Source: Paracyclopina nana
Taxonomy: Eukaryota; Arthropoda; Copepoda; Cyclopoida; Cyclopettidae
Assembly (NCBI GenBank): GCA_019096065.1
Contig: JAGUCH010000002.1
Coordinates: forward strand, 2,554,501 to 2,618,500
Length of the DNA stretch: 64,000 bases
Reading direction: 5' to 3'
The notes beneath the pieces were generated by a model, which was not told the DNA's origin, ran no database searches, and was given only the letters and a program-made list of their open reading frames with translations. Positions 1,019 through 33,429 of the stretch are shown one piece after another. Each line of letters begins with the position of its first letter. Position 1 is the first letter of the stretch. The position numbers were made by a program, and so were the translations under genes.

Positions 1019-1240
1019 GGGCCTGTTCACCTGCTTATTATGGCCGTTATTTTGGCAAAATATTGGAGAGAAATACTGAGAAACTGAGAATTTTTATATT
1101 GGTGTAGGATGGCTTTTGGTACCAATATACCGATTCCGAAGTCAAAATCTTAAAAATGATTTAACAAATACCACATATTTGCAAATTTCATCATAATATC
1201 GCGCGTTATTTTGCTGATAATATTGCAGGTGAACAGGGCC
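1019..1240 (+). mobile_element. 222-bp MITE, PIF/Harbinger-like, TAA target duplication
   Basis: Terminal inverted repeats start GGGCCTGTTCACCTGC on the left, with the matching complement ending in GGTGAACAGGGCC on the right. The element is flanked by TAA at 1016-1018 and 1241-1243. A 3-bp TAA duplication with GC-rich ends fits non-autonomous PIF/Harbinger (Tourist-type) elements. No coding capacity. A second copy in the opposite orientation lies at 33208-33429. Confidence 0.85.
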
Positions 1241-1243
1241 TAA

Positions 1244-7620: not shown

Positions 7621-8287
7621 ATGGTAGACTTCACCAAGATCTTGCCTAGTAAAGTATTTTGTTGCCTTGACTTTGACCCAGGAGCCAAGATTCTCATTGG
7701 GATCATCATACTCCTGAGGTTCATCTGTATGGTCTTGGGTTGCTTTTATGGGCCTTATTTGTATGCAGTTTTGCCTCTGGGAGGACTTTATCTAGGTGGA
7801 GACATTTTGCTGCTCTACACCATTTTTGGCAGTGGTTTGACACGAATTTCAAATTACCCAGAATCTTCATCAGCTTCATCTTTGGATGGTATTATGGATA
7901 CTTTACAGTAATGCACTTCATGCTTAATTTTTTTTTTTTGACCTTTCAGAAAATTGTGACTTCAAAAGCCAACGAATTTGGATATTCTTCTGGTTGGCTC
8001 TTAACATTTTTGCCATTTTTGGCCTGTCCCTATCACTCATATTATTTCTGGTGCAAATTGGCTGGTGGTCCATGACCCATTTGGCCATTCATGTGGCCAT
8101 TTTCTTCTTGGTATTGGTGCTTGTCATGCTTCTCATTTATGGTCAGCTCATTGTGGTCACCACTTACTTGATTCTCAAAGATGCCTGGGTCAGAGGAATC
8201 ATTGGTGGGATCAGTGATGACGAGGACAGAGCAGGACTCACGCATAATGGGAAACGAGTGCACGCTTCCCCACGAACCCTTTTGTGA
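7621..8287 (+). CDS. Four-pass membrane protein whose 3' end is invaded by the transposon
   Basis: Exons 7621-7888 and 7950-8287 join in frame (61-bp intron) to 201 residues. Four hydrophobic segments are visible: AKILIGIIILLRFICMVLG, a second around LPLGGLYLGGDILLLYTIF, IWIFFWLALNIFAIFGLSLSL and LAIHVAIFFLVLVLVMLLIYG, with short loops and an acidic C-tail (SDDEDRAG). The layout resembles small tetraspan families of arthropods, but I do not recognise the family. The final codons are not host sequence: at 8268 the reading frame enters the transposon inverted repeat and stops at the TGA inside it (8285-8287), adding SPRTLL after ...RVHA. Joining the left flank to the right flank of the array predicts that the ancestral frame ended at TAA directly after that Ala, with an AATAAA now at 33202-33207 about 45 bases downstream. 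The host poly(A) signal is thus displaced by 25 kb. Confidence 0.8.
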
Positions 8288-9017
8288 AAGTAAAAGCCAG
8301 ATCAAAGTTTCCAAAAATGCATAGTGCTTAAGCTGGGTAGTTACCTTTCAAATGCATTTTTTATTATTGTTAGCGTTACTAAAAAGGCACAACAAAGCCA
8401 TAATTCAAATGCAATTGAATTAAAGTTGAAAAAGTCACTTCAAAGTTATTGATATTAAATGCGACGAATGGCTTTATCAAATGCATTTTTATTGCCATTC
8501 AAATGCATTTTTAGTTTTTTTGACGAAGAATATGAAATGCGGATGAAAGCGTAATCAAAGGCAGTGAATTTTGGCCTTTCGAGGCTGCCGCTGTATTGCG
8601 AGGCTGCGTTTGAAATTACCGCGCGACCTTTGAGCGAATTTGAAATGCATTAACACCCTGTTGTAATGTATTCTTTATTAATGGCCTCGTTAAGGAACTG
8701 CACACACATATAAATTTTCTATTGAGTGCTCTATTAGGCACCTCAAATGCAATTAAGTTATTATCTTAAATTTCTGCGCGACTCTACTGTTTGTCGGCAT
8801 TCAATAAGGTTGCTTATCACATATCAATCACAATAATTTTGTCAAATCGGAATGCATTGCAATGACGCTTTCTAATGACTGAGCGTCATTGCTTAGAAAT
8901 GCAAACTTTTAGCGCAAAGTTGCGCTTACTACGTACTGCCAAAGGGGTTTGAAAAAGAAAAAATAGAAATATTAATTATCGAGGACCAATATTCTTGTCA
9001 TCATTTTAGGCATTGCA
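8285..9017 (+). repeat. Left subterminal repeat region of copy 1
   Basis: Non-coding 0.7 kb holding repeated variants of CAAATGCATTTTT (for example at about 8351, 8481, 8501, 8639, 8744 and 8850), several AAAGCCA/CAAAG motifs and a hairpin CAATGACGCT...AGCGTCATTG near 8860-8891. Candidate binding sites for the element-encoded proteins and the 3' flank of the minus-strand gene. Equivalent regions begin copies 2 (16596-17328) and 3 (24908-25618). Copy 3 lacks 22 bp here. Confidence 0.75.
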
Positions 9018-12000
9018 TCACTTCCTCTTCGCACGCTCGGCCATCTCATCAAATTGCCTTTGGGCTGCAATGGCTTCAGGAGTGATCAAATCAGCCATGG
9101 CACTGGAGGATTGGACACCGAAGGTTGTATTTGGATCCTATACGAAAGTTACAATTACTTCGTGCATTACGATTGTAGTAGTATAATGCAAATTAAAAAT
9201 GCTATAACTGCAACGATTTCTTACTTTCTTACGCATTTAGAATGCAACTGATCATAAAATCAACTGTTTTAATAAAAACGGAAGGTTAAGTGACTTGTAT
9301 CACTTATTGAAACATTTTGGTAATAAAAATGCATTAGGAAATTAATAATAAGGCTTTGGGCTTACGGGTGGAGGAGCTTGGGACGATTGGATGACTTCAT
9401 CATCGTCGTCATTTCCATCTGATGGCTCTTGGCCATCATCTCGGCTCACGTCTGCCATTGAAGGCGATCCTGTTGGAGTTTTCGTCAAATTAGCGAGCTC
9501 CTCTTCATCACTCTCCGTGTGGACTTTAATTGGCATTGACCAACTGCCTTCGTAAGGGGGAAATTGGCGTAGGAGTCCATCAATGTCCTGCATGTAGTCT
9601 GCAACGACCTTCTTATATATTTCCTCCAGCTGAAAAGGTAAACGTACAGGCTTAATTGCATTGAGGAACTTTTGGGATTACAATCAAGCTGCAGTTGAAC
9701 TTACATTCGGCACAAAAGAAATCTTGTCCCAGGTGAGCTTTGAGATGTCTTCACCCTCAACTGCAGCTGCAGCAACAATCGTCTTGATGACGTCGTACAC
9801 TGAGAAGACGTGTTTGGAGCGTCTTGCCATCAAAGAGTAGAAGACTTCTTCCTCCGGTGGGTATTCTTTGTCCTCCTCGTCTTGGCTTTCATCAATGGAC
9901 AAATTGAATTCGGAGCGCAGCCTCATGCGGTCGCAATAGGCGACTCTATTTTCTGGCTCCAAGTGAGCAGGGATGGCGTGCTGCAATTTGGAGGTAGAGG
10001 TTGAAGAACCGAAATGCATTTACAAGTTAATAGTGAGCGTACCTGATTGTGGAAGTAGTACTCATTGTCAGTATTATGCATGACATCGATCATGCAATCA
10101 CTATCGTTAGTTTTCTCGTGGGCCACTTCCAACTGCCTCGTCCTTGAATTCGTAAAGCGTTGAGCAATACGCAACCGGATCTTTGACATGTCCTCCATTG
10201 GAGCCTCTTTTCCCAAATCCATCTTCTTCCTTAGGTACGGAATGACGTCACTTTTGATGATTTTCGGCAAGGCCTCTGGAATCTCACGCTTGAAGTATTG
10301 CTGCTTTTTGACACTGCAATTGAAAGTGTTCCGTCACGTCATATTGAGAAAAGCAGCTGCCAGCATGCAAATGACTTTGACAGCTGAGTAAATGATGCGA
10401 AAATAAACTTACGACTTAGGTTGCTTCCAAATCAAATGTGCCATCGCCAACCTCGAAAAGAAGCAGTCGGTGACAGCAAACGCAATACGAGTATTGACGT
10501 TGTATTTGGGGCTGTCCAAGTCAGCCTTCATCATAGCCACAACCTTGCTTTGCACGTAGTGTGAGGCCAAAAACACATCGCATCCCTCACCCATGAAGTC
10601 GAAGGGCAGCAAACGGCCAAGAATGCCCACTGCTCGTGAGGCTTTCTCAGCAGCGTGATCACGATTCTCTTTGATCTCATTACGAATGCGTGCCTGCTCT
10701 ACACTGAAGTCGGCAATCAAGTCTTGGATGTTCTCCGTCGACTTTTGAATTTTCTGCAATAGGAAATGCAAGCGCGCTTAGTTTCATAGCCTACAGTCGA
10801 TCCTACTTGCACCAACAATGCTTCGCACGTACTTGTTACGCATCATTTCAAATTCAATTTGCAGTTACATTAACGTTGCATGGACTAACCTTTAGAATCC
10901 CGATAGGCTGCTTGTTGCCTGCCTCTTGCTCATCCATGATCCTGCGTACCTCTTCGCGAACTATTTCCCTCATGTCATTGCGCATTGTTGGCATGACGTA
11001 TTGAGACATTACATCTTGCACGGTCGTTCGAATTTGAGTTGCAAGGTCAACTTCACCTCCATGGCGGCGGCGCAAGTACTCCTCAAGGTACTGGTTGAAA
11101 CGAACCTCCATTTGGTCATCGCTGATGAGGAATGCATTTGTGACCGGCTGCAAGAAATGTAGCGTCAGAAATGTTGCAATGTCAAATGCGCCTTCAAAGG
11201 CATTTGGAAGTTTACCTCTCCTGCTGGGAATTCGCTGACAACTTCGGCTACCACTGGAGGAATTGCTCCAGGTGGGGCAACGGGAACAAGTTGTGGCTCG
11301 TTAGCAAATGCCTGTGGTGGAGCAACTACCGCCAAAGGTGGTTCCGAAGGAGGTGCATCCATGGCTGATGGCGTCGTCATTGCCGGCGGCGAAATTGAGC
11401 GGCAAATAGTTTGGACAACGCCCCCTGCAGTTCGAGCGCAGTTGTCAGGGGTTGACTCCTTGGGCTTCCCAGAGGCTGGAACAATGCCTAGTTCGGACTG
11501 AATGCCAGCAACAGCCTTTTTTGCTGACGCACGTTGGCTTCTTTTCTCCACATCTTTGGCGGGAGATTGGCTTCGGCTCTTCTTAGGGTTGGATTTTGAC
11601 CCCGATAATTCAGTCAACGTGGAGTCAAGTTCCTCCATCAACGTCACGCTCGAATCGCTTGAATCAGTTTCGAGTCCACTTGCCTTTCGCTTCTTGGCTG
11701 AAAAGAAATATTTAATGCATAACATTTCTTATGTCTTGGCTTAGAACTGCATACCTAATCCTTTCTTGGTCCTTGGTCCAGACTTCCCGGGGGTCTTCCC
11801 TTTCAGTGGCATTCCTTTTGTTGCCTTGCCTTTTGCTGGCGACGAACTAAACAAAGGATTCGTCACGAGATGGCCTTGGGCAATTGGCGAAACCTGTGAT
11901 TAAAAAGTCAAGTTAAGTGTGGTTTGAAGACATTGAAAGGCTTACCGCTGATTGATTGGGCGAATTCCCAGCCTCGGATGCCGAACTCGATATTGGCATT

Positions 12001-12639
12001 TCCTTGCCTTTTCGTCCAATTCGGACTGGAGTTGCCTCCTCGTCGGAATCCTCCAATTCGCCTCCAGTTTGTGGCAAGCTTGAAACTCCTTTGCGTCTTG
12101 TGCCAGCCCCAACCCAAGGGTAGTACATCCTTTTGCCCTTAATGGGATCCATTTCTGGGTACGTCCAGGCGCACATGAACTTTTCGCCGAAGGATTTGAT
12201 CAGCGTCATTTTCATGGCCTTGCGTTGACCAAAGGAAAGGCCTTTAAAACGCTTGTTAAGCTTGTCCTTAACCTCTTGGATGCGGCTTGGCTCCATGCCT
12301 AAAGAATTCGGAAGAGCAGTAAATGCGACGTGGATCTAATATCGAAATGGATTTTGGAATACCTTTTTCAATCCTGCAGAAAACGGATAGCTCCTTGTCG
12401 GGCTCGCAATCGTCGATCATGACTTTCGCCGTCTTCATTCGATTGGCGATGCTCATCTTCTTCGTCGGGTCGAAGCCAAAGACGACGTTCAAAGGCTTGT
12501 TGGACTCGTAATAACGGTAGTTGGCCGCCAATTGTTGGATGGGCTCATCGTCACGGATGCAAACGACCAACAATAGGTCGTACGTGGCCCCAGCATTGTC
12601 GGGAGGAGTCGTTTCCCTCGGTTGCAGATTATGCGCCAT
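9018..12639 (-). CDS. Transposon-encoded protein 2, 10 exons, 926 aa, function unknown (copy 1)
   Basis: Ten exons with consistent phases: 12639-12363, 12298-11946, 11893-11755, 11697-11216, 11147-10890, 10753-10413, 10313-10043, 9980-9705, 9629-9366 and 9137-9018, ending in TGA. All introns are 37-135 bp GT-AG. No domain was recognised with confidence. The first 210 residues form a compact, conserved-looking region. Then comes a basic, Pro/Ala/Ser-rich low-complexity section (KKRKASGLETDSSDSS, APPQAFANEP). After it lies a helical block with coiled-coil character (IQKSTENIQDLIADFSVEQA) and a globular part around LLPFDFMGEGCDVFLASHYV, and finally an acidic tail (DGNDDDDEV) ending in ERAKRK*. 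By analogy with CACTA elements, which pair a transposase with a DNA-binding accessory protein (TnpA), it may bind the subterminal repeats, but that is inference from layout only. In this copy all exons are open. Confidence 0.85.
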
Positions 12640-12969
12640 CTTCGCTTTTTAACGCTCTTCTATTTGACGAGATTTTTTTAAACTTGTAAAAGACGCGACT
12701 TTTTTATTACGCAGTTGAAACGGTTTTCCACAGCGAGCGGCCGGAATCAGGCGCCAAGAAATTCTTGGCCGTACGGGCTAGTTCGGCTGACAGGGCTGGC
12801 AGTTACTGTTTAGAGGCGGGAAATTTCAAACATGCCTTCTCGCTGCCTTTGAAGTGCCTTTGTACTTTTGATTGGCAGCTTGGGCAGACGTGGCTGCTTG
12901 AAGTTGCTACGTACTTTGCCACTGAGCCGTCAGCTAACGCGTAAATCGGCGTACGAAAATAAGCGAACA
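12640..12969. promoter_or_regulatory. Divergent promoter region between the two transposon genes (copy 1)
   Basis: The start codons of the two genes face away from each other across 330 bp that contain no other exon, so both must be driven from here. It is more GC-rich than the element termini (GCGAGCGGCCGG). No TATA box is obvious. Equivalent segments are 20951-21280 (copy 2) and 29242-29571 (copy 3), sequence-identical by eye. Confidence 0.6.
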
Positions 12970-15900
12970 ATGGCGAAAAAGAAGAAAAATTCGCATAAAC
13001 CTTTGACGAACGCTGAAAGGCAGGCCAAGCACCGAGCAAAGGTGAAGGAGAATTTGAGGCGACTACGGATCCAGCATTTGCAGTGTCAAGCGGCTGTCAG
13101 ACTTGTTCAGGCGCAACAAGCAAGTACTCGTAAAGCGTAAGTTTTGCTGCTGAAATTTGAAAATTTGACGCACCTAATGCATATTCCATTCTTAACAGTT
13201 TAGAGGAGCAATTGCAAGGCAATGAGCTTGACCGTGATCCATGCAATTCCGTTGCAAGTGAAGCTGCAGTTGCCAAGTACGTCGATGGTTTGAATGACTT
13301 CATTGAAAAAGTGATTTTGGATGACGGCGAGAGTGACAATGAGCGTAAAGACAGCGGCGACTCAGATGATGGTGATGTCGTGTACGATGAGCAGGAACGC
13401 TTCAGCGCAGCAGAAGTCATCAACAGAGGATTGAAACGACGACGCGAAATGGACTTCAACCCCATTAAGGCTAACGTTGATGGACGGAATAGTGATGATG
13501 AGCGCATCAACGACTCTCAAAATGACGATGAGATCATCCAAGCAACTGAAGTCCTTGCGCCTATCAGAAAGAAGAAGAGGTTCGCCGATTTAGTCGCAAA
13601 TGATGAATTGCCAGCAGGGCAAACATTAGAAGACAGTTACATCTATGACGACGACGAAGATCAAGGAGATGCAACTGATGCATCAGAATTGAATGGTGAA
13701 GGGATTCAAGAGCCGGTTCTGGATTCAGAAACTGTCAGTGTTCCGGAGACGCAATTGGAGCCACAACTGCCTTCAACTTCCAAGGCAGAGGAATCTTTCC
13801 CACCGCTCTTCAATGAAAAAGGAAAGCGCACTGTTATTGAGGATCCGGAGACTGGTGAATTTATGGTATTCGACCCACTTAGTGATATAGACACAGAAAG
13901 CGATTCAAATGCTGATGAGATGTTTGAAAAGAAGCAGCCAGTGTTCAAAGACGCTGTCGATTTAGCATTTTTAAAAGATGGTAGTGATTACGACATTGAC
14001 TTTGAACTTTCAAGCGGAGATGACAGTCATGGCGACGGCAACGCAAGCAGAGACAACGACCACTTCAATGAAGTTTTAGGTGCTCCGCCCTTACCTGGTG
14101 AAAATGACGAAGTTGTAAGTTTAGTTTTACTTTGTAATGCATTTAACAAACTTATAGCTGAATAAATGAAATGTGTATGCATGTCCCGCAGGATCTGTCT
14201 GATGAAGATGTTTGGTTTGATGCGCGAGAGGAGCAGGAACCTGACAATGATGATCAGGTTGAAGACAACATGGTGCCATCAATGGGTACAACTTTGAAAG
14301 ACTTTCGAGATGCACTTGCAGAAGATGAGCACTTACCAACGCAAAAGGAGAGAGACCATCAACTCTACGCAAGATTTTTTCATCTTGTCTCACTTATGGG
14401 ATCGCGAATGCGCGAGGCAAAGGCATACTGGAACTTTGCTAGGTCTTTATGCAACCGAAAGTTGTTGTCATTCAACACAATTCGAAAGCGCTTTGAAAAG
14501 CTATGCCCTAAAGTCACAATTACGTATGAGTTTAGGGACAATGTGACGAAAAAGATTTACCACCATCAAGGTGACAAGTTACCGCGACGACAATTTCCTC
14601 GACCAAGATTCACACTAATCTCGGAATGGTCGTCAGTCTCATTGAAGGATTTGTACAAATTCTTTGTGAGTGTACATCCAAAGGGATTCAAATGTGAATG
14701 GGATGGCAAAAAATTTGTTGATTTGTTTATGGACGGTGTGCCAATAACCAAAAGTGGTGATGCCAAAATGGACGTCCTCTGTGCTCGATTTGCTCCTTGC
14801 AGAAAAATTTGGCCAGCTGCAATGCATGTGACTCGAAATGGACATGGCACCCAATTGCTAAGTCTCCTGAAGGATGTGCTTGACGAAGCACTTGAAAATG
14901 ACTTCATTGTCAGAAAGTTCATTGGTGACAGTCCAATGCGTGCCAAAATCAAGTGCCTTAAGCAACACAATGGGTACGGCAGCTGCGAGTGGTGTTATTG
15001 TTGGGGAGAATATGACACAAATTTGAGCAAAATGACTTTCCCTGCAAACACAATAAAATATAAGAGGAGAACGCATGCTGAATGGATTTCAATTGCAAGG
15101 CAAATCAAAAGCAATCCAAGACGGATCGGCATTAAGAAGCGCTATGGCATCAAGGGATTTTCGCCGTTACTGGACCTGGATTATTTCGATATCATCAAGG
15201 ATTTCGTCCCAGATCCAATGCACCTGATTTCTCTTGGAGTTGGAAGGGCTTTGCTTGCTTCAATCTTTGACACCAAGCAGGGAAAGGCTGTGTCATCTGC
15301 TGACGGGCTTGCAACAGCTCGCAAATTTGACGCTGAGTGGGCTTTCCAAGATTTGCCAAGTGAATTTGCAAGGAGACCGAGGACAATCAAAGACCACTTC
15401 GCCAATTTGAAGGCATCGGAGTTTTTGGCAATTATTGTTTGTGGTTTCACTCATCTGTACGAGGCTCTCAGTTACGAACATCAGCGCCCAATTAGAAAGC
15501 TTTGGATGTACTTTTGCTACATTGTCCACGCAGCGCTGCTACCAAATGTTATATTCAATGAGATCATGGACGATGACAAGGCATTCAAATTGCAAAAGAC
15601 ATTTTACGAAATGTATGAGAAGAATTACAGAGACGGTTGCACTTTCAATGTGCATACCTTCAGCCACCTACTCGAAATTAGAAAAATAGGCCATCTCAGC
15701 GACTTCAGTGCAATGCCATTTGAGTCATTCTTCTCATTTCTGAAGAGAATTCTCTTGCCAAACACAATGAGCTACGGGAAGCAATCTTTGATACGTTCAT
15801 TTATTAGCAACATGAATGCACATCCATGTGGCTACAAAGTCGTGATTTCTAGCCGACAAAAAAACGTTGCATTGACAGCTTGGTGTGCACTTTCGATGGC

Positions 15901-16137
15901 AGCTTCTATGAAATACTTGAAGGTGGCGAAGATAACACGTTCAAGGCACGCGAAGTCTTCACGCGTGCATACGAAGTCCCAGAGGCACCTGAACTGGATT
16001 GGGGAGCCGTAATGGTGAAGAAATTCCATTCTGTTTCCAGAGATACGTGCATTCTGGAAAAAGAAGACATTCATTGCAAAGCCATCAAAGCTGGAGATGT
16101 ACTCATTTCGATACCAAATGATGTGTACTACACATAA
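12970..16137 (+). pseudogene. Transposase gene of copy 1, frameshifted near its 3' end
   Basis: Exons 12970-13136, 13199-14114 and 14192 onward, as in copy 2. The A run at 15858-15864 has seven A where copies 2 and 3 have eight. The frame therefore shifts and ends at 16012 with a foreign tail, losing roughly the last 90 residues of the 1,009-residue protein. The catalytic region (see copy 2) lies upstream of the shift and is intact, so partial function is conceivable. A consensus error is equally likely, because the same kind of single-base loss occurs in several host genes of this window. Confidence 0.8.
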
Positions 16138-16571
16138 AAATGTATAAATTAACGTGTGATATGAATAAATCTTGAAGGAAGTCCGAAGGAAGACGCAATT
16201 TAATAAAATTAAATACAAATCCCGCGCATGCAATTTCATTTGAAACGCATTTTTCGTAAAAGTTCAGTCAACTTTGACAAAGGCAACTATTCATTTTAAC
16301 ATAAAATTTGAATAAATTTGTAAAATTCAAACAAAATTCATTCAGTCTGCATTTAGGTCATGTCGCCATTGATGTAACTTTGTAAAAGCCACTGCAAAGT
16401 CAACGATTTCAGGAAAAATTTGATGACTTTGAAATGCATTTGACAACGGCACTTGCAATGAATTTAAAATAACGTTGAAATGGCTTTGTTACGCTTTAGA
16501 GTACAAAGCCATATCAAAGCCACATTGATTGAAGTTCAATTCTGGTGAAATTTTCAAAAGGGTTCGTGGGG
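16138..16571 (+). repeat. Right subterminal repeat region of copy 1
   Basis: Non-coding 0.43 kb after the transposase stop: AATAAA signals near 16163, then GAAACGCATTTTT and GAAATGCATTTGAC variants of the subterminal motif, and repeated CTTTGAC/CAAAG(C) blocks up to the inverted repeat. Equivalents are 24450-24883 and 32738-33171. Confidence 0.7.
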
Positions 16572-16578
16572 TTAATAT
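16572..16578. other. Junction spacer TTAATAT between copies 1 and 2
   Basis: Seven bases separate the right inverted repeat of copy 1 from the left inverted repeat of copy 2, so the junction is a 17-bp-arm palindrome with a 7-base loop. The spacer is not transposon sequence. The same seven bases recur at 24884-24890. Confidence 0.95.
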
Positions 16579-17328
16579 CCCCACGAACCCTTTTGTGAAA
16601 GTAAAAGCCAGATCAAAGTTTCCAAAAATGCATAGTGCTTAAGCTGGGTAGTTACCTTTCAAATGCATTTTTTATTATTGTTAGCGTTACTAAAAAGGCA
16701 CAACAAAGCCATAATTCAAATGCAATTGAATTAAAGTTGAAAAAGTCACTTCAAAGTTATTGATATTAAATGCGACGAATGGCTTTATCAAATGCATTTT
16801 TATTGCCATTCAAATGCATTTTTAGTTTTTTTGACGAAGAATATGAAATGCGGATGAAAGCGTAATCAAAGGCAGTGAATTTTGGCCTTTCGAGGCTGCC
16901 GCTGTATTGCGAGGCTGCGTTTGAAATTACCGCGCGACCTTTGAGCGAATTTGAAATGCATTAACACCCTGTCGTAATGTATTCTTTATTAATGGCCTCG
17001 TTAAGGAACTGCACACACATATAAATTTTCTATTGAGTGCTCTATTAGGCACCTCAAATGCAATTAAGTTATTATCTTAAATTTCTGCGCGACTCTACTG
17101 TTTGTCGGCATTCAATAAGGTTGCTTATCACATATCAATCACAATAATTTTGTCAAATCGGAATGCATTGCAATGACGCTTTCTAATGACTGAGCGTCAT
17201 TGCTTAGAAATGCAAACTTTTAGCGCAAAGTTGCGCTTACTACGTACTGCCAAAGGGGTTTGAAAAAGAAAAAATAGAAATATTAATTATCGAGGACCAA
17301 TATTCTTGTCATCATTTTAGGCATTGCA

Positions 17329-20300: not shown

Positions 20301-20950
20301 ATATTGGCATTTCCTTGCCTTTTCGTCCAATTCGGACTGGAGTTGCCTCCTCGTCGGAATCCTCCAATTCGCCTCCAGTTTGTGGCAAGCTTGAAACTCC
20401 TTTGCGTCTTGTGCCAGCCCCAACCCAAGGGTAGTACATCCTTTTGCCCTTAATGGGATCCATTTCTGGGTACGTCCAGGCGCACATGAACTTTTCGCCG
20501 AAGGATTTGATCAGCGTCATTTTCATGGCCTTGCGTTGACCAAAGGAAAGGCCTTTAAAACGCTTGTTAAGCTTGTCCTTAACCTCTTGGATGCGGCTTG
20601 GCTCCATGCCTAAAGAATTCGGAAGAGCAGTAAATGCGACGTGGATCTAATATCGAAATGGATTTTGGAATACCTTTTTCAATCCTGCAGAAAACGGATA
20701 GCTCCTTGTCGGGCTCGCAATCGTCGATCATGACTTTCGCCGTCTTCATTCGATTGGCGATGCTCATCTTCTTCGTCGGGTCGAAGCCAAAGACGACGTT
20801 CAAAGGCTTGTTGGACTCGTAATAACGGTAGTTGGCCGCCAATTGTTGGATGGGCTCATCGTCACGGATGCAAACGACCAACAATAGGTCGTACGTGGCC
20901 CCAGCATTGTCGGGAGGAGTCGTTTCCCTCGGTTGCAGATTATGCGCCAT
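17329..20950 (-). CDS. Transposon-encoded protein 2, 926 aa, function unknown (copy 2)
   Basis: All ten exons of copy 1 recur at a constant offset of 8,311 bases (first exon 20950-20674, last 17448-17329) with open frames. One coding substitution against copy 1 changes a Thr codon to Ala in the Gly-Gly-Glu-Val-Asp-Leu region encoded near 19350, and one changes Pro to Ala near 20098. Role and domain remarks as for copy 1. The intact reading over ten exons in two copies argues that the protein is needed by the element. Confidence 0.87.
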
Positions 20951-21280
20951 CTTCGCTTTTTAACGCTCTTCTATTTGACGAGATTTTTTTAAACTTGTAA
21001 AAGACGCGACTTTTTTATTACGCAGTTGAAACGGTTTTCCACAGCGAGCGGCCGGAATCAGGCGCCAAGAAATTCTTGGCCGTACGGGCTAGTTCGGCTG
21101 ACAGGGCTGGCAGTTACTGTTTAGAGGCGGGAAATTTCAAACATGCCTTCTCGCTGCCTTTGAAGTGCCTTTGTACTTTTGATTGGCAGCTTGGGCAGAC
21201 GTGGCTGCTTGAAGTTGCTACGTACTTTGCCACTGAGCCGTCAGCTAACGCGTAAATCGGCGTACGAAAATAAGCGAACA

Positions 21281-24200
21281 ATGGCGAAAAAGAAGAAAAA
21301 TTCGCATAAACCTTTGACGAACGCTGAAAGGCAGGCCAAGCACCGAGCAAAGGTGAAGGAGAATTTGAGGCGACTACGGATCCAGCATTTGCAGTGTCAA
21401 GCGGCTGTCAGACTTGTTCAGGCGCAACAAGCAAGTACTCGTAAAGCGTAAGTTTTGCTGCTGAAATTTGAAAATTTGACGCACCTAATGCATATTCCAT
21501 TCTTAACAGTTTAGAGGAGCAATTGCAAGGCAATGAGCTTGACCGTGATCCATGCAATTCCGTTGCAAGTGAAGCTGCAGTTGCCAAGTACGTCGATGGT
21601 TTGAATGACTTCATTGAAAAAGTGATTTTGGATGACGGCGAGAGTGACAATGAGCGTAAAGACAGCGGCGACTCAGATGATGGTGATGTCGTGTACGATG
21701 AGCAGGAACGCTTCAGCGCAGCAGAAGTCATCAACAGAGGATTGAAACGACGACGCGAAATGGACTTCAACCCCATTAAGGCTAACGTTGATGGACGGAA
21801 TAGTGATGATGAGCGCATCAACGACTCTCAAAATGACGATGAGATCATCCAAGCAACTGAAGTCCTTGCGCCTATCAGAAAGAAGAAGAGGTTCGCCGAT
21901 TTAGTCGCAAATGATGAATTGCCAGCAGGGCAAACATTAGAAGACAGTTACATCTATGACGACGACGAAGATCAAGGAGATGCAACTGATGCATCAGAAT
22001 TGAATGGTGAAGGGATTCAAGAGCCGGTTCTGGATTCAGAAACTGTCAGTGTTCCGGAGACGCAATTGGAGCCACAACTGCCTTCAACTTCCAAGGCAGA
22101 GGAATCTTTCCCACCGCTCTTCAATGAAAAAGGAAAGCGCACTGTTATTGAGGATCCGGAGACTGGTGAATTTATGGTATTCGACCCACTTAGTGATATA
22201 GACACAGAAAGCGATTCAAATGCTGATGAGATGTTTGAAAAGAAGCAGCCAGTGTTCAAAGACGCTGTCGATTTAGCATTTTTAAAAGATGGTAGTGATT
22301 ACGACATTGACTTTGAACTTTCAAGCGGAGATGACAGTCATGGCGACGGCAACGCAAGCAGAGACAACGACCACTTCAATGAAGTTTTAGGTGCTCCGCC
22401 CTTACCTGGTGAAAATGACGAAGTTGTAAGTTTAGTTTTACTTTGTAATGCATTTAACAAACTTATAGCTGAATAAATGAAATGTGTATGCATGTCCCGC
22501 AGGATCTGTCTGATGAAGATGTTTGGTTTGATGCGCGAGAGGAGCAGGAACCTGACAATGATGATCAGGTTGAAGACAACATGGTGCCATCAATGGGTAC
22601 AACTTTGAAAGACTTTCGAGATGCACTTGCAGAAGATGAGCACTTACCAACGCAAAAGGAGAGAGACCATCAACTCTACGCAAGATTTTTTCATCTTGTC
22701 TCACTTATGGGATCGCGAATGCGCGAGGCAAAGGCATACTGGAACTTTGCTAGGTCTTTATGCAACCGAAAGTTGTTGTCATTCAACACAATTCGAAAGC
22801 GCTTTGAAAAGCTATGCCCTAAAGTCACAATTACGTATGAGTTTAGGGACAATGTGACGAAAAAGATTTACCACCATCAAGGTGACAAGTTACCGCGACG
22901 ACAATTTCCTCGACCAAGATTCACACTAATCTCGGAATGGTCGTCAGTCTCATTGAAGGATTTGTACAAATTCTTTGTGAGTGTACATCCAAAGGGATTC
23001 AAATGTGAATGGGATGGCAAAAAATTTGTTGATTTGTTTATGGACGGTGTGCCAATAACCAAAAGTGGTGATGCCAAAATGGACGTCCTCTGTGCTCGAT
23101 TTGCTCCTTGCAGAAAAATTTGGCCAGCTGCAATGCATGTGACTCGAAATGGACATGGCACCCAATTGCTAAGTCTCCTGAAGGATGTGCTTGACGAAGC
23201 ACTTGAAAATGACTTCATTGTCAGAAAGTTCATTGGTGACAGTCCAATGCGTGCCAAAATCAAGTGCCTTAAGCAACACAATGGGTACGGCAGCTGCGAG
23301 TGGTGTTATTGTTGGGGAGAATATGACACAAATTTGAGCAAAATGACTTTCCCTGCAAACACAATAAAATATAAGAGGAGAACGCATGCTGAATGGATTT
23401 CAATTGCAAGGCAAATCAAAAGCAATCCAAGACGGATCGGCATTAAGAAGCGCTATGGCATCAAGGGATTTTCGCCGTTACTGGACCTGGATTATTTCGA
23501 TATCATCAAGGATTTCGTCCCAGATCCAATGCACCTGATTTCTCTTGGAGTTGGAAGGGCTTTGCTTGCTTCAATCTTTGACACCAAGCAGGGAAAGGCT
23601 GTGTCATCTGCTGACGGGCTTGCAACAGCTCGCAAATTTGACGCTGAGTGGGCTTTCCAAGATTTGCCAAGTGAATTTGCAAGGAGACCGAGGACAATCA
23701 AAGACCACTTCGCCAATTTGAAGGCATCGGAGTTTTTGGCAATTATTGTTTGTGGTTTCACTCATCTGTACGAGGCTCTCAGTTACGAACATCAGCGCCC
23801 AATTAGAAAGCTTTGGATGTACTTTTGCTACATTGTCCACGCAGCGCTGCTACCAAATGTTATATTCAATGAGATCATGGACGATGACAAGGCATTCAAA
23901 TTGCAAAAGACATTTTACGAAATGTATGAGAAGAATTACAGAGACGGTTGCACTTTCAATGTGCATACCTTCAGCCACCTACTCGAAATTAGAAAAATAG
24001 GCCATCTCAGCGACTTCAGTGCAATGCCATTTGAGTCATTCTTCTCATTTCTGAAGAGAATTCTCTTGCCAAACACAATGAGCTACGGGAAGCAATCTTT
24101 GATACGTTCATTTATTAGCAACATGAATGCACATCCATGTGGCTACAAAGTCGTGATTTCTAGCCGACAAAAAAAACGTTGCATTGACAGCTTGGTGTGC

Positions 24201-24449
24201 ACTTTCGATGGCAGCTTCTATGAAATACTTGAAGGTGGCGAAGATAACACGTTCAAGGCACGCGAAGTCTTCACGCGTGCATACGAAGTCCCAGAGGCAC
24301 CTGAACTGGATTGGGGAGCCGTAATGGTGAAGAAATTCCATTCTGTTTCCAGAGATACGTGCATTCTGGAAAAAGAAGACATTCATTGCAAAGCCATCAA
24401 AGCTGGAGATGTACTCATTTCGATACCAAATGATGTGTACTACACATAA
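21281..24449 (+). CDS. Transposase, CACTA/CMC (Tnp2-like) type, 1,009 aa (copy 2, intact)
   Basis: Exons 21281-21447, 21510-22425 and 22503-24449 join in frame. Residues 1-60 are very basic (MAKKKKNSHK, ERQAKHRAKVKENLRR). Residues 60-400 are acidic and probably disordered. The catalytic part follows: LFMDGVPITKSGD near 541 (candidate first Asp of the DDE triad), FIGDSPMRAKIKC near 606 with CEWCYCWGEY near 626 (a zinc-binding-like C-x2-C insertion), PDPMHLISLGVGRALL near 700 and HTFSHLLEIRKIGHLSDFS to MPFESFFSFLKR near 850-875. This order (DG.P, G....C..C, D.MHL..LGV, FSA.PFE) is the signature of the Tnp2-like transposases widespread in animals. The enzyme would excise and insert the element in the nucleus. 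Catalytic assignments are from pattern, not alignment. Confidence 0.9.
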
Positions 24450-24883
24450 AAATGTATAAATTAACGTGTGATATGAATAAATCTTGAAGGAAGTCCGAAG
24501 GAAGACGCAATTTAATAAAATTAAATACAAATCCCGCGCATGCAATTTCATTTGAAACGCATTTTTCGTAAAAGTTCAGTCAACTTTGACAAAGGCAACT
24601 ATTCATTTTAACATAAAATTTGAATAAATTTGTAAAATTCAAACAAAATTCATTCAGTCTGCATTTAGGTCATGTCGCCATTGATGTAACTTTGTAAAAG
24701 CCACTGCAAAGTCAACGATTTCAGGAAAAATTTGATGACTTTGAAATGCATTTGACAACGGCACTTGCAATGAATTTAAAATAACGTTGAAATGGCTTTG
24801 TTACGCTTTAGAGTACAAAGCCATATCAAAGCCACATTGATTGAAGTTCAATTCTGGTGAAATTTTCAAAAGGGTTCGTGGGG

Positions 24884-24890
24884 TTAATAT
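24884..24890. other. Junction spacer TTAATAT between copies 2 and 3
   Basis: Identical to the spacer at 16572-16578, again inside a 17-bp-arm palindrome formed by facing inverted repeats. Confidence 0.95.
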
Positions 24891-25618
24891 CCCCACGAAC
24901 CCTTTTGTGAAAGTAAAAGCCAGATCAAAGTTTCCAAAAATGCATAGTGCTTAAGCTGGGTAGTTACCTTTCAAATGCATTTTTTATTATTGTTAGCGTT
25001 ACTAAAAAGGCACAACAAAGCCATAATTCAAATGCAATTGAATTAAAGTTGAAAAAGTCACTTCAAAGTTATTGATATTAAATGCGACGAATGGCTTTAT
25101 CAAATGCATTTTTAGTTTTTTTGACGAAGAATATGAAATGCGGATGAAAGCGTAATCAAAGGCAGTGAATTTTGGCCTTTCGAGGCTGCCGCTGTATTGC
25201 GAGGCTGCGTTTGAAATTACCGCGCGACCTTTGAGCGAATTTGAAATGCATTAACACCCTGTTGTAATGTATTCTTTATTAATGGCCTCGTTAAGGAACT
25301 GCACACACATATAAATTTTCTATTGAGTGCTCTATTAGGCACCTCAAATGCAATTAAGTTATTATCTTAAATTTCTGCGCGACTCTACTGTTTGTCGGCA
25401 TTCAATAAGGTTGCTTATCACATATCAATCACAATAATTTTGTCAAATCGGAATGCATTGCAATGACGCTTTCTAATGACTGAGCGTCATTGCTTAGAAA
25501 TGCAAACTTTTAGCGCAAAGTTGCGCTTACTACGTACTGCCAAAGGGGTTTGAAAAAGAAAAAATAGAAATATTAATTATCGAGGACCAATATTCTTGTC
25601 ATCATTTTAGGCATTGCA

Positions 25619-28600
25619 TCACTTCCTCTTCGCACGCTCGGCCATCTCATCAAATTGCCTTTGGGCTGCAATGGCTTCAGGAGTGATCAAATCAGCCATG
25701 GCACTGGAGGATTGGACACCGAAGGTTGTATTTGGATCCTATACGAAAGTTACAATTACTTCGTGCATTACGATTGTAGTAGTATAATGCAAATTAAAAA
25801 TGCTATAACTGCAACGATTTCTTACTTTCTTACGCATTTAGAATGCAACTGATCATAAAATCAACTGTTTTAATAAAAACGGAAGGTTAAGTGACTTGTA
25901 TCACTTATTGAAACATTTTGGTAATAAAAATGCATTAGGAAATTAATAATAAGGCTTTGGGCTTACGGGTGGAGGAGCTTGGGGACGATTGGATGACTTC
26001 ATCATCGTCGTCATTTCCATCTGATGGCTCTTGGCCATCATCTCGGCTCACGTCTGCCATTGAAGGCGATCCTGTTGGAGTTTTCGTCAAATTAGCGAGC
26101 TCCTCTTCATCACTCTCCGTGTGGACTTTAATTGGCATTGACCAACTGCCTTCGTAAGGGGGAAATTGGCGTAGGAGTCCATCAATGTCCTGCATGTAGT
26201 CTGCAACGACCTTCTTATATATTTCCTCCAGCTGAAAAGGTAAACGTACAGGCTTAATTGCATTGAGGAACTTTTGGGATTACAATCAAGCTGCAGTTGA
26301 ACTTACATTCGGCACAAAAGAAATCTTGTCCCAGGTGAGCTTTGAGATGTCTTCACCCTCAACTGCAGCTGCAGCAACAATCGTCTTGATGACGTCGTAC
26401 ACTGAGAAGACGTGTTTGGAGCGTCTTGCCATCAAAGAGTAGAAGACTTCTTCCTCCGGTGGGTATTCTTTGTCCTCCTCGTCTTGGCTTTCATCAATGG
26501 ACAAATTGAATTCGGAGCGCAGCCTCATGCGGTCGCAATAGGCGACTCTATTTTCTGGCTCCAAGTGAGCAGGGATGGCGTGCTGCAATTTGGAGGTAGA
26601 GGTTGAAGAACCGAAATGCATTTACAAGTTAATAGTGAGCGTACCTGATTGTGGAAGTAGTACTCATTGTCAGTATTATGCATGACATCGATCATGCAAT
26701 CACTATCGTTAGTTTTCTCGTGGGCCACTTCCAACTGCCTCGTCCTTGAATTCGTAAGCGTTGAGCAATACGCAACCGGATCTTTGACATGTCCTCCATT
26801 GGAGCCTCTTTTCCCAAATCCATCTTCTTCCTTAGAGTACGGAATGACGTCACTTTTGATGATTTTCGGCAAGGCCTCTGGAATCTCACGCTTGAAGTAT
26901 TGCTGCTTTTTGACACTGCAATTGAAAGTGTTCCGTCACGTCATATTGAGAAAAGCAGCTGCCAGCATGCAAATGACTTTGACAGCTGAGTAAATGATGC
27001 GAAAATAAACTTACGACTTAGGTTGCTTCCAAATCAAATGTGCCATCGCCAACCTCGAAAAGAAGCAGATCGGTGACAGCAAACGCAATACAGTATTGAC
27101 GTTGTATTTGGGGCTGTCCAAGTCAGCCTTCATCATAGCCACAACCTTGCTTTGCACGTAGTGTGAGGCCAAAAACACATCGCATCCCTCACCCATGAAG
27201 TCGAAGGGCAGCAAACGGCCAAGAATGCCCACTGCTCGTGAGGCTTTCTCAGCAGCGTGATCACGATTCTCTTTGATCTCATTACGAATGCGTGCCTGCT
27301 CTACACTGAAGTCGGCAATCAAGTCTTGGATGTTCTCCGTCGACTTTTGAATTTTCTGCAATAGGAAATGCAAGCGCGCTTAGTTTCATAGCCTACAGTC
27401 GATCCTACTTGCACCAACAATGCTTCGCACGTACTTGTTACGCATCATTTCAAATTCAATTTGCAGTTACATTAACGTTGCATGGACTAACCTTTAGAAT
27501 CCCGATAGGCTGCTTGTTGCCTGCCTCTTGCTCATCCATGATCCTGCGTACCTCTTCGCGAACTATTTCCCTCATGTCATTGCGCATTGTTGGCATGACG
27601 TATTGAGACATTACATCTTGCACGGTCGTTCGAATTTGAGCTGCAAGGTCAACTTCACCTCCATGGCGGCGGCGCAAGTACTCCTCAAGGTACTGGTTGA
27701 AACGAACCTCCATTTGGTCATCGCTGATGAGGAATGCATTTGTGACCGGCTGCAAGAAATGTAGCGTCAGAAATGTTGCAATGTCAAATGCGCCTTCAAA
27801 GGCATTTGGAAGTTTACCTCTCCTGCTGGGAATTCGCTGACAACTTCGGCTACCACTGGAGGAATTGCTCCAGGTGGGGCAACGGGAACAAGTTGTGGCT
27901 CGTTAGCAAATGCCTGTGGTGGAGCAACTACCGCCAAAGGTGGTTCCGAAGGAGGTGCATCCATGGCTGATGGCGTCGTCATTGCCGGCGGCGAAATTGA
28001 GCGGCAAATAGTTTGGACAACGCCCCCTGCAGTTCGAGCGCAGTTGTCAGGGGTTGACTCCTTGGGCTTCCCAGAGGCTGGAACAATGCCTAGTTCGGAC
28101 TGAATGCCAGCAACAGCCTTTTTTGCTGACGCACGTTGGCTTCTTTTCTCCACATCTTTGGCGGGAGATTGGCTTCGGCTCTTCTTAGGGTTGGATTTTG
28201 ACCCCGATAATTCAGTCAACGTGGAGTCAAGTTCCTCCATCAACGTCACGCTCGAATCGCTTGAATCAGTTTCGAGTCCACTTGCCTTTCGCTTCTTGGC
28301 TGAAAAGAAATATTTAATGCATAACATTTCTTATGTCTTGGCTTAGAACTGCATACCTAATCCTTTCTTGGTCCTTGGTCCAGACTTCGCCGGGGTCTTC
28401 CCTTTCAGTGGCATTCCTTTTGTTGCCTTGCCTTTTGCTGGCGACGAACTAAACAAAGGATTCGTCACGAGATGGCCTTGGGCAATTGGCGAAACCTGTG
28501 ATTAAAAAGTCAAGTTAAGTGTGGTTTGAAGACATTGAAAGGCTTACCGCTGATTGATTGGGCGAATTCCCAGCCTCGGATGCCGAACTCGATATTGGCA

Positions 28601-29241
28601 TTTCCTTGCCTTTTCGTCCAATTCGGACTGGAGTTGCCTCCTCGTCGGAATCCTCCAATTCGCCTCCAGTTTGTGGCAAGCTTGAAACTCCTTTGCGTCT
28701 TGTGCCAGCCCCAACCCAAGGGTAGTACATCCTTTTGCCCTTAATGGGATCCATTTCTGGGTACGTCCAGGCGCACATGAACTTTTCGCCGAAGGATTTG
28801 ATCAGCGTCATTTTCATGGCCTTGCGTTGACCAAAGGAAAGGCCTTTAAAACGCTTGTTAAGCTTGTCCTTAACCTCTTGGATGCGGCTTGGCTCCATGC
28901 CTAAAGAATTCGGAAGAGCAGTAAATGCGACGTGGATCTAATATCGAAATGGATTTTGGAATACCTTTTTCAATCCTGCAGAAAACGGATAGCTCCTTGT
29001 CGGGCTCGCAATCGTCGATCATGACTTTCGCCGTCTTCATTCGATTGGCGATGCTCATCTTCTTCGTCGGGTCGAAGCCAAAGACGACGTTCAAAGGCTT
29101 GTTGGACTCGTAATAACGGTAGTTGGCCGCCAATTGTTGGATGGGCTCATCGTCACGGATGCAAACGACCAACAATAGGTCGTACGTGGCCCCAGCATTG
29201 TCGGGAGGAGTCGTTTCCCTCGGTTGCAGATTATGCGCCAT
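25619..29241 (-). pseudogene. Transposon-encoded protein 2, copy 3, with frame-breaking indels
   Basis: Same ten-exon gene as in copies 1 and 2, but with an extra G at 25981-25984 (exon 9), a lost A near 26756 and an extra A near 26835 (exon 7, mutually compensating), and an extra A near 27069 with a lost G near 27090 (exon 6, mutually compensating). The two compensating pairs scramble about 25 and 7 codons. The uncompensated G changes the phase into the last exon. Either decayed or mis-sequenced. Confidence 0.75.
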
Positions 29242-29571
29242 CTTCGCTTTTTAACGCTCTTCTATTTGACGAGATTTTTTTAAACTTGTAAAAGACGCGA
29301 CTTTTTTATTACGCAGTTGAAACGGTTTTCCACAGCGAGCGGCCGGAATCAGGCGCCAAGAAATTCTTGGCCGTACGGGCTAGTTCGGCTGACAGGGCTG
29401 GCAGTTACTGTTTAGAGGCGGGAAATTTCAAACATGCCTTCTCGCTGCCTTTGAAGTGCCTTTGTACTTTTGATTGGCAGCTTGGGCAGACGTGGCTGCT
29501 TGAAGTTGCTACGTACTTTGCCACTGAGCCGTCAGCTAACGCGTAAATCGGCGTACGAAAATAAGCGAACA

Positions 29572-32500
29572 ATGGCGAAAAAGAAGAAAAATTCGCATAA
29601 ACCTTTGACGAACGCTGAAAGGCAGGCCAAGCACCGAGCAAAGGTGAAGGAGAATTTGAGGCGACTACGGATCCAGCATTTGCAGTGTCAAGCGGCTGTC
29701 AGACTTGTTCAGGCGCAACAAGCAAGTACTCGTAAAGCGTAAGTTTTGCTGCTGAAATTTGAAAATTTGACGCACCTAATGCATATTCCATTCTTAACAG
29801 TTTAGAGGAGCAATTGCAAGGCAATGAGCTTGACCGTGATCCATGCAATTCCGTTGCAAGTGAAGCTGCAGTTGCCAAGTACGTCGATGGTTTGAATGAC
29901 TTCATTGAAAAAGTGATTTTGGATGACGGCGAGAGTGACAATGAGCGTAAAGACAGCGGCGACTCAGATGATGGTGATGTCGTGTACGATGAGCAGGAAC
30001 GCTTCAGCGCAGCAGAAGTCATCAACAGAGGATTGAAAGCGACGCGAAATGGACTTCAACCCCATTAAGGCTAACGTTGATGGACGGAATAGTGATGATG
30101 AGCGCATCAACGACTCTCAAAATGACGATGAGATCATCCAAGCAACTGAAGTCCTTGCGCCTATCAGAAAGAAGAAGAGGTTCGCCGATTTAGTCGCAAA
30201 TGATGAATTGCCAGCAGGGCAAACATTAGAAGACAGTTACATCTATGACGGCGACGAAGATCAAGGAGATGCAACTGATGCATCAGAATTGAATGGTGAA
30301 GGGATTCAAGAGCCGGTTCTGGATTCAGAAACTGTCAGTGTTCGGAGACGCAATTGGAGCCACAACTGCCTTCAACTTCCAAGGCAGAGGAATCTTTCCC
30401 ACCGCTCTTCAATGAAAAAGGAAAGCGCACTGTTATTGAGGATCCGGAGACTGGTGAATTTATGGTATTCGACCCACTTAGTGATATAGACACAGAAAGC
30501 GATTCAAATGCTGATGAGATGTTTGAAAAGAAGCAGCCAGTGTTCAAAGACGCTGTCGATTTAGCATTTTTAAAAGATGGTAGTGATTACGACATTGACT
30601 TTGAACTTTCAAGCGGAGATGACAGTCATGGCGACGGCAACGCAAGCAGAGACAACGACCACTTCAATGAAGTTTTAGGTGCTCCGCCCTTACCTGGTGA
30701 AAATGACGAAGTTGTAAGTTTAGTTTTACTTTGTAATGCATTTAACAAACTTATAGCTGAATAAATGAAATGTGTATGCATGTCCCGCAGGATCTGTCTG
30801 ATGAAGATGTTTGGTTTGATGCGCGAGAGGAGCAGGAACCTGACAATGATGATCAGGTTGAAGACAACATGGTGCCATCAATGGGTACAACTTTGAAAGA
30901 CTTTCGAGATGCACTTGCAGAAGATGAGCACTTACCAACGCAAAAGGAGAGAGACCATCAACTCTACGCAAGATTTTTTCATCTTGTCTCACTTATGGGA
31001 TCGCGAATGCGCGAGGCAAAGGCATACTGGAACTTTGCTAGGTCTTTATGCAACCGAAAGTTGTTGTCATTCAACACAATTCGAAAGCGCTTTGAAAAGC
31101 TATGCCCTAAAGTCACAATTACGTATGAGTTTAGGGACAATGTGACGAAAAAGATTTACCACCATCAAGGTGACAAGTTACCGCGACGACAATTTCCTCG
31201 ACCAAGATTCACACTAATCTCGGAATGGTCGTCAGTCTCATTGAAGGATTTGTACAAATTCTTTGTGAGTGTACATCCAAAGGGATTCAAATGTGAATGG
31301 GATGGCAAAAAATTTGTTGATTTGTTTATGGACGGTGTGCCAATAACCAAAAGTGGTGATGCCAAAATGGACGTCCTCTGTGCTCGATTTGCTCCTTGCA
31401 GAAAAATTTGGCCAGCTGCAATGCATGTGACTCGAAATGGACATGGCACCCAATTGCTAAGTCTCCTGAAGGATGTGCTTGACGAAGCACTTGAAAATGA
31501 CTTCATTGTCAGAAAGTTCATTGGTGACAGTCCAATGCGTGCCAAAATCAAGTGCCTTAAGCAACACAATGGGTACGGCAGCTGCGAGTGGTGTTATTGT
31601 TGGGGAGAATATGACACAAATTTGAGCAAAATGACTTTCCCTGCAAACACAATAAAATATAAGAGGAGAACGCATGCTGAATGGATTTCAATTGCAAGGC
31701 AAATCAAAAGCAATCCAAGACGGATCGGCATTAAGAAGCGCTATGGCATCAAGGGATTTTCGCCGTTACTGGACCTGGATTATTTCGATATCATCAAGGA
31801 TTTCGTCCCAGATCCAATGCACCTGATTTCTCTTGGAGTTGGAAGGGCTTTGCTTGCTTCAATCTTTGACACCAAGCAGGGAAAGGCTGTGTCATCTGCT
31901 GACGGGCTTGCAACAGCTCGCAAATTTGACGCTGAGTGGGCTTTCCAAGATTTGCCAAGTGAATTTGCAAGGAGACCGAGGACAATCAAAGACCACTTCG
32001 CCAATTTGAAGGCATCGGAGTTTTTGGCAATTATTGTTTGTGGTTTCACTCATCTGTACGAGGCTCTCAGTTACGAACATCAGCGCCCAATTAGAAAGCT
32101 TTGGATGTACTTTTGCTACATTGTCCACGCAGCGCTGCTACCAAATGTTATATTCAATGAGATCATGGACGATGACAAGGCATTCAAATTGCAAAAGACA
32201 TTTTACGAAATGTATGAGAAGAATTACAGAGACGGTTGCACTTTCAATGTGCATACCTTCAGCCACCTACTCGAAATTAGAAAAATAGGCCATCTCAGCG
32301 ACTTCAGTGCAATGCCATTTGAGTCATTCTTCTCATTTCTGAAGAGAATTCTCTTGCCAAACACAATGAGCTACGGGAAGCAATCTTTGATACGTTCATT
32401 TATTAGCAACATGAATGCACATCCATGTGGCTACAAAGTCGTGATTTCTAGCCGACAAAAAAAACGTTGCATTGACAGCTTGGTGTGCACTTTCGATGGC

Positions 32501-32737
32501 AGCTTCTATGAAATACTTGAAGGTGGCGAAGATAACACGTTCAAGGCACGCGAAGTCTTCACGCGTGCATACGAAGTCCCAGAGGCACCTGAACTGGATT
32601 GGGGAGCCGTAATGGTGAAGAAATTCCATTCTGTTTCCAGAGATACGTGCATTCTGGAAAAAGAAGACATTCATTGCAAAGCCATCAAAGCTGGAGATGT
32701 ACTCATTTCGATACCAAATGATGTGTACTACACATAA
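29572..32737 (+). pseudogene. Transposase gene, copy 3, exon 2 frameshifted
   Basis: Exon 1 and the long catalytic exon (30791-32737) are identical to copy 2, including the eight-A run. Exon 2 has a 2-base loss at about 30038-30040 and a 1-base loss near 30343. Between them the frame is wrong and stops at 30068. After the second loss the frame returns to normal. As written the gene encodes only about 140 residues, but the entire catalytic exon is intact and the sum of losses is exactly three bases. Confidence 0.78.
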
Positions 32738-33207
32738 AAATGTATAAATTAACGTGTGATATGAATAAATCTTGAAGGAAGTCCGAAGGAAGACGCAATT
32801 TAATAAAATTAAATACAAATCCCGCGCATGCAATTTCATTTGAAACGCATTTTTCGTAAAAGTTCAGTCAACTTTGACAAAGGCAACTATTCATTTTAAC
32901 ATAAAATTTGAATAAATTTGTAAAATTCAAACAAAATTCATTCAGTCTGCATTTAGGTCATGTCGCCATTGATGTAACTTTGTAAAAGCCACTGCAAAGT
33001 CAACGATTTCAGGAAAAATTTGATGACTTTGAAATGCATTTGACAACGGCACTTGCAATGAATTTAAAATAACGTTGAAATGGCTTTGTTACGCTTTAGA
33101 GTACAAAGCCATATCAAAGCCACATTGATTGAAGTTCAATTCTGGTGAAATTTTCAAAAGGGTTCGTGGGGATACATTACACACCCTTAATTTTGAAACC
33201 AAATAAA

Positions 33208-33429
33208 GGCCCTGTTCACCTGCATTATTATCAGCTAAATAACGCGCGATATTATGATGAAATTTGCAAATATCTTGTATTTTTAATGTCATTTTTCAGA
33301 TTTTGACTTCGGAATCGGTCTATTGGTACCAAAAGCCATCCTACACCAATATAAAAATTCTCAGTTTTTCAGTATTTCTCTCCCATATTTTACCAAAATT
33401 ACGGCCATAATAAGCAGGTGAACAGGCCC
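33208..33429 (-). mobile_element. MITE, second copy of the 1019-1240 family, inverted
   Basis: The sequence is the reverse complement of the 1019 element with roughly 85-90% identity by eye, including both ends (GGCCCTGTTCACCTGC and its complement). It starts immediately after the AATAAA at 33202-33207. AAA on both sides may be a 3-bp target duplication. Non-coding. Confidence 0.85.

Follow-up and report, generated by a model that had tools for sequence, protein, structure and literature searches.

Structure of the array

The window analysed here is a stretch of 64,000 bp (C2:2554501-2618500, on contig C2) from a genome of 91,952,342 bases in 10 contigs, in which our searches were made. Self-BLAST and alignment of the window revealed three 8.3-kb units of a DNA transposon, all in the same direction and arranged head to tail. 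In each unit the first 17 bp are CCCCACGAACCCTTTTG and the last 17 bp are the reverse complement of this sequence, exact at all six ends (terminal inverted repeats, TIRs), and the neighbouring units are separated by 7 bp. An initial annotation of this DNA had described three complete, direct units with identical 17-bp inverted repeats, 7-bp spacers and few base differences over 8.3 kb. All of this agrees with our results: pairwise counts were 3-5 substitutions and 1-9 gaps, and the completeness of the element is backed by TIRs and target duplications across its family. Genes near the array have Pfam matches to the TGF-beta receptor GS domain, LNR, Kelch and C2H2; judged by this gene content, the host genome is that of an animal. 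Searches for SL1 and COX1 found nothing; the SL1 result carries no weight, since its control found nothing either.

The units in the list below were delimited by self-BLAST, alignment and TIR search, their TIRs by TIR search, and the edge duplications and the second spacer by alignment and flank comparison.

8266..8267: target duplication TT at the array's left edge
8268..16571, plus strand: unit 1, flanks TT/TT
8268..8284, plus strand: left TIR of unit 1, CCCCACGAACCCTTTTG
16555..16571, minus strand: right TIR of unit 1
16572..16578: spacer TTAATAT at junction 1, readable as TT (first-site copy), AAT and AT (second-site copy)
16579..24883, plus strand: unit 2, the middle unit and putative recombinant, flanks AT/TT
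16579..16595, plus strand: left TIR of unit 2
24867..24883, minus strand: right TIR of unit 2
24884..24890: spacer TTAATAT at junction 2, same as junction 1
24891..33171, plus strand: unit 3, flanks AT/AT
24891..24907, plus strand: left TIR of unit 3
25100..25113: 14-bp repeat TCAAATGCATTTTT, two copies in units 1 and 2, one copy remaining in unit 3 (22-bp loss)
33155..33171, minus strand: right TIR of unit 3
33172..33173: target duplication AT at the array's right edge

The pairwise alignment of units 1 and 2 (8304 aligned bases) showed 4 substitutions and 1 gap, that of units 2 and 3 (8278 bases) 3 substitutions and 8 gaps, among them one of 22 bp, and that of units 1 and 3 (8277 bases) 5 substitutions and 9 gaps. 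Counted from the alignment of all three, there were 6 substitutions and 9 indel events in total. Between unit 2 and an old decayed copy elsewhere in the genome there were 860 mismatches and 59 gap openings, and the excess of indels among the units compared with this pair (Fisher p about 1e-7) looks like residual, uncorrected long-read sequence error. Twin elements on contig C8 were similar, with 2 substitutions and 3 gaps over their larger part and none over the smaller part of 1628 bases. Because we read the indel excess as sequence error, the frame breaks of units 1 and 3 are not to be trusted. The proposal in the initial annotation that amplification was very recent is backed, perhaps more strongly than it was stated, since much of the difference between units is of the indel type and possibly sequence error; the route of amplification was missing from it.

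Of the six substitutions, those at columns 3524 and 3526 (unit 1) might instead be compensating indels, and that at column 5176 (unit 3) lies at an alignment edge. The other three were private transitions: T/C in unit 2, T/C in unit 1 and A/G in unit 3.

The main rival to three real units is a dimer from double insertion, or alleles of differing copy number, with the third unit added by assembly expansion or haplotype merging. If E1 and E2 denote the first and the second insertion, the dimer TT-E1-TTAATAT-E2-AT already holds each junction type observed, and the indel-heavy differences (9 indels, 6 substitutions) resemble uncorrected long-read error. The three plain transitions, one private to each unit, and the private 22-bp loss in unit 3 argue against this explanation. 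By our reading of the alignment, deriving unit 2 from units 1 and 3 as a mosaic would also take three switches and a private base. We consider an expanded dimer or merged haplotypes unlikely and favour three real units, because each unit has its own private transition; that all three copies are real is what we infer from these differences rather than read directly off the sequence.

Origin of the triplet

The outer units are flanked by matching dinucleotides, TT/TT for unit 1 and AT/AT for unit 3, and the middle unit by the mismatched pair AT/TT. This is the pattern expected if two copies inserted 5 bp apart and one unequal exchange came after, and the triplet probably arose in this way. The original target can be read as GC-TT-AAT-AT-ACATT, and the pre-insertion allele would be expected to read GCTTAATATACATT. 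An 8.3-kb, two-gene cut-and-paste element, placed below in the CACTA/Mirage/Chapaev/Transib (CMCT) clade, would have entered at a host stop codon, its DDE-type transposase duplicating 2 bp. A second copy in the same orientation would have landed 5 bp away, resulting in TT-E1-TTAATAT-E2-AT. This copy would most likely have come by a local hop, with the array itself as the likeliest donor because its subfamily was found only here and in one decayed copy (6.3 of 8.3 kb searched). A single unequal exchange between E1 and E2, by crossover between sister chromatids or homologues or by an equivalent template switch, would then have resulted in TT-E1-TTAATAT-E2/E1-TTAATAT-E2-AT, with a recombinant middle unit that takes its left flank from E2 and its right flank from E1. 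How the events were ordered, that the second copy hopped locally and that an exchange took place are our reconstruction. In support of it, the mismatched AT/TT of the middle unit is the pair required of such a recombinant, and the 7-bp spacer repeats exactly. The family can also insert into its own copies, as the nest on contig C8 shows (see below). As in double insertion, full-length copies lie head to tail at nearly one target site, and their joints are explained by separate target duplications (TT + AAT + AT).

The family's behaviour elsewhere in the genome bears on this reading. A search with the family TIR pattern gave 71 hits, compared with 53 for its reversed control; single TIR hits therefore mean little, and pairs are credible because their flanks match. 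Fifty-eight hits paired into 29 elements, four belonged to two C8 elements and nine single hits were left out; with the decayed copy, this made a set of 32 other family elements. An exact 2-bp flank match was found in 28 of the 32, and a 3-bp duplication, AAT/AAT, in two. A 2-bp match at random has a probability of about 0.07 per element, and TT/TT at unit 1 together with AT/AT at unit 3 would both arise by chance with a probability of about 0.005.

Had a circular or rolling-circle concatemer of the element been integrated in a single event, a fixed end joint in the circle would explain why the same 7-bp spacer occurs twice. A single insertion predicts equal outer duplications, however, whereas the array has TT on its left and AT on its right. 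Moreover, TT + AAT + AT accounts exactly for the spacer, and the other family elements are single, with the ordinary 2-bp duplication at the frequency given above. A concatemer is thus very improbable. Three independent insertions at one place might be proposed from the self-nesting on contig C8 (see below), which shows that repeat hits occur. A third hit duplicating 2 bp would leave a 2-bp joint, such as AT alone, but both joints have the full 7 bp, and we give this explanation next to no credence.

Transposases can pair the ends of neighbouring elements, as for maize Ac/Ds. Aberrant (alternative-end) transposition between sister chromatids, without ordinary unequal crossover, could have an outcome that looks like a tandem duplication. 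Footprints or stretches of shared host flank would then be expected at the joint, whereas the joints here hold only intact ends and seven letters that fit the target reading, which makes this route highly unlikely.

The host gene at the insertion site is represented by one feature.

7928..8287, plus strand: final ORF, rich in hydrophobic stretches, of a putative membrane-protein gene of the host

When the two flanks were joined with AAT, this open reading frame (ORF) read ...NGKRVHA followed by an in-frame TAA. Because the joining restores the TAA, we infer that the array was inserted at the stop codon of the putative host gene, which would make that codon the very place where the array formed. 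The element extends the host frame by six transposon-encoded residues (SPRTLL), after which comes a new stop.

Several points weigh against two insertions and an exchange at a stop codon. The stop-codon argument rests on the host ORF, for which neither a paralogue nor a Pfam match was found, and the in-frame stop at the joined flanks can be chance. An uninterrupted empty-site copy was absent among the 41 listed matches to the joined flanks (best 40 of 536 candidates scored). All unit differences in the alignment are private to a single unit, and the exchange point is therefore untraceable by a shared marker. Two of the 32 family elements (C2:4510471 and C3:4184630) showed no target duplication. 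The target-site preference of the family is weak (28 sites), so that two hits 5 bp apart stay rare without local targeting. Outside the array, three pairs of loci lay within 10 kb of each other, compared with a random expectation of about 1.1 for 99 loci, a modest excess.

Among the 41 listed matches, the left 150 bases matched only themselves, while the right flank entered an abundant short repeat. A repeat of about 222 bp forms an inverted pair in the window (1019-1241 and 33207-33429, 94% identical) and belongs to a short element abundant in the genome, with 39 other places listed in the joined-flank search.

The process of double insertion is already known from Drosophila, and the triplet is an unusually readable example of it. 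The hobo element belongs to the hAT superfamily. Double insertion of transposable elements followed by copy gain has been reported for Drosophila (McGurk and Barbash 2018, as described in passages of PMC12628747 and PMC12368964), and the same passages describe a tandem expansion of hobo to 16 copies. The dimers described there are likewise head to tail, with separate insertions at almost one site and later copy gain; in contrast, the present case involves an 8.3-kb element of another superfamily, sites 5 bp apart, one locus and three copies. The melanism insertion of the peppered moth, a 9-kb tandemly inserted transposable element (PMC12368964), is likewise a long tandem element at a host locus, a likeness by description only. 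Full-length tandem arrays had been called rare in the initial annotation. This is too strong in general, because the same passages describe dimers of DNA transposons as common in Drosophila; within this genome, the array was the only head-to-tail array of one element among the 99 transposase loci listed. If two insertions and an exchange gave the triplet, the target-duplication letters alone would record its origin, the end copies being the original insertions and the middle copy the recombinant, and the double-insertion route to tandem repeats would become testable at one locus.

Genes and clade of the element

The element had been described as having two genes, and we recovered both: a plus-strand transposase, and a minus-strand ORF series matched at the protein level in a distant family member, the C8 element.

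13212-14165, plus strand: unit 1 counterpart of the upstream ORF
14171-16012, plus strand: transposase ORF of unit 1, shortened to 613 codons
17653..20959, minus strand: second gene of unit 2, an ORF series with protein-level matches to the C8 element
21523..22476, plus strand: upstream ORF of unit 2, 317 codons
22482..24449, plus strand: transposase ORF of unit 2, 655 codons, with D188, D253, C272/C275, H495/H499 and E518
30770-32737, plus strand: transposase ORF of unit 3, 655 codons

In unit 3, the upstream plus-strand ORF is broken (84 codons versus 317); unit 2 is the only unit in this assembly with both plus-strand ORFs open. The initial annotation had suggested that copy 2 may still be active, but the differences that interrupt the ORFs of the other two units may be sequence errors. 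The upstream ORF is likely the N-terminal part of the transposase gene, because several relatives have longer single ORFs. For the second gene, minus-strand ORFs 18234-18644, 18720-19088, 20224-20646 and 20579-20959 matched the C8 element over 77-137 residues (identities, sorted by size, 34, 38, 41 and 53%), and a 21-residue piece of minus-strand ORF 17653-17988 was 62% identical to it. None of the plus-strand ORFs of this stretch matched the C8 element at the protein level, and DNA matches between the unit and the C8 element were confined to the transposase. The second gene is likely under selection, because its minus-strand and not its plus-strand ORFs have these protein matches. It had no match in Pfam.

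By its motif signature, the transposase is assigned to the CMCT clade. The 655-codon ORF was 54-57% identical to 14 relatives picked from the top of a protein search. D188, D253, C272, C275, H495, H499 and E518 were invariant in all 15 sequences, and also in 8 of 8 of a set including three distant members. A catalytic role for D188, D253 and E518 would fit this conservation. According to the text of PMC12730594 on the clade, CMCT transposases have catalytic acids D, D and E, the motifs C(2)C and H(3-4)H lie between the second D and the last E, and the elements have TIRs, target duplications of 2-5 bp and, "in most cases", CA..TG termini. We therefore take these termini as not strictly defining. 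The present family has the three acids D/D/E, C(2)C and H(3)H, and target duplications in the 2-5 bp range; its ends are CCC..GGG and not the CA..TG usual in CMCT lineages. Besides the three units, the decayed copy and 31 further elements have CCC..GGG ends; the 31 were found by a CCC pattern and are thus not independent. A distant family member that was reached by way of its transposase, C2:6516555-6524163, likewise has CCCC..GGGG ends, with inverted ends readable as CCCCACAAAATTTTT and the target TA; CCC ends and the 2-bp duplication may therefore hold family-wide.

The transposase had no match in Pfam, and sequence and profile searches of PDB with it gave no informative match. A single-sequence structure model had a mean pLDDT of 35.4, too low to use.

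Two known groups were considered and rejected. PiggyBac, whose target duplication is TTAA, was considered for the CCC ends and the TTAA within the spacer; the present family duplicates 2 variable bp, with flanks TT/TT and AT/AT, and the TTAA is coincidental. EnSpm/CACTA proper has CAC..GTG ends and 3-bp duplications, in contrast to CCC..GGG and mostly 2-bp duplications here. With EnSpm/CACTA and the wider clade (Mirage, Chapaev, Transib, Plavaka, ESTA and Lanisha, as treated in PMC12730594), the family shares C(2)C, H(3)H, TIRs and short target duplications; it differs in its ends (CA..TG in most of the clade, CAC..GTG in EnSpm), in 2-bp target duplications of no fixed sequence and in the lack of a Pfam match. 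Plavaka A/B shares target duplications of 2 bp or 2-3 bp and the CMCT motifs, but its termini, described from fungi, are TGT..ACA or CATCA..TGATG (PMC12730594), unlike the CCC..GGG found here in an animal host. No CMCT lineage with CCC..GGG ends was found in the portions of the clade literature searched, which did not include Repbase. The family may thus be an unlabelled CMCT lineage. No Pfam model covers this resident family of the animal host.

Relatives and clustering in the genome

A genome search with the TIR of the array, allowing up to two mismatches, gave 22 places, compared with 13 for a reversed control pattern. Six were in the array and two (one exact, one with one mismatch) bounded a further element, C2:13095032-13103475; the other 14 (one with one mismatch, 13 with two) were not assigned to the array subfamily. 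When two parts of the unit, covering 6.3 of its 8.3 kb, were used as DNA queries, the three array copies, one decayed copy and weak matches to other elements were found; these copy counts are lower bounds. The decayed copy (C2:13.095-13.103 Mb) lacks parts of the unit and carries about 2.1 kb of inserted DNA; its matching pieces were 71-92% identical.

At the protein level the family is larger. Two transposase searches listed 69 and 72 matches (best 68 of 239 and best 71 of 238 candidates scored), corresponding to at least 99 distinct loci, the three array units included. Among the matches listed, 64 of 69 and 68 of 72 were stop-free, some of them partial. On viral contigs, none of 26 pattern-matching stretches encoded a relative. 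Eight short elements of 1.1-1.6 kb on C1, C4, C7 and C8 carry the family TIR, with 2-bp duplications in all eight, and are likely non-autonomous derivatives.

Five pairs of neighbouring loci lay within 10 kb: two inside the array, the nest on C8, C2:6513128/6521722 and C3:5574133/5582041. At C8:4369012-4385476, a full 8235-bp element is nested in its 99.85% identical twin at the target CT, and the twin acts as an empty site showing the 2-bp duplication. The C8 pair (4369491/4376093) was thus rejected as a second tandem array. C2:6513128/6521722, on the same strand, was rejected as a tandem pair, since its members are distinct elements (45% and 38% identity to the protein query); the right end of the first was looked for and not found. 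The C3 pair also consists of different elements. At C2:4509452-4518918, an apparent full element lies inside a short one, with outer flanks TA/TA and inner flanks TT/AA that do not match.

The C8 self-nest, the other close pairs and the nest at C2:4509452-4518918 hint at self-proximal insertion in this family. It is conceivable, though doubtful, that the family, with its CCC..GGG ends, 2-bp duplications of no set sequence and two divergent genes, is an unnamed CMCT lineage whose transposition complex favours sites next to or within existing copies of the family, seeding tandem arrays that are expanded by exchange. If so, the triplet at the stop codon would be an array caught at the first step.

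An Rfam search of the window gave nothing at gathering score. Further downstream, positions 59738-60681 hold tandem repeats of 15-45 bp, mostly inside ORF 60031-61071.

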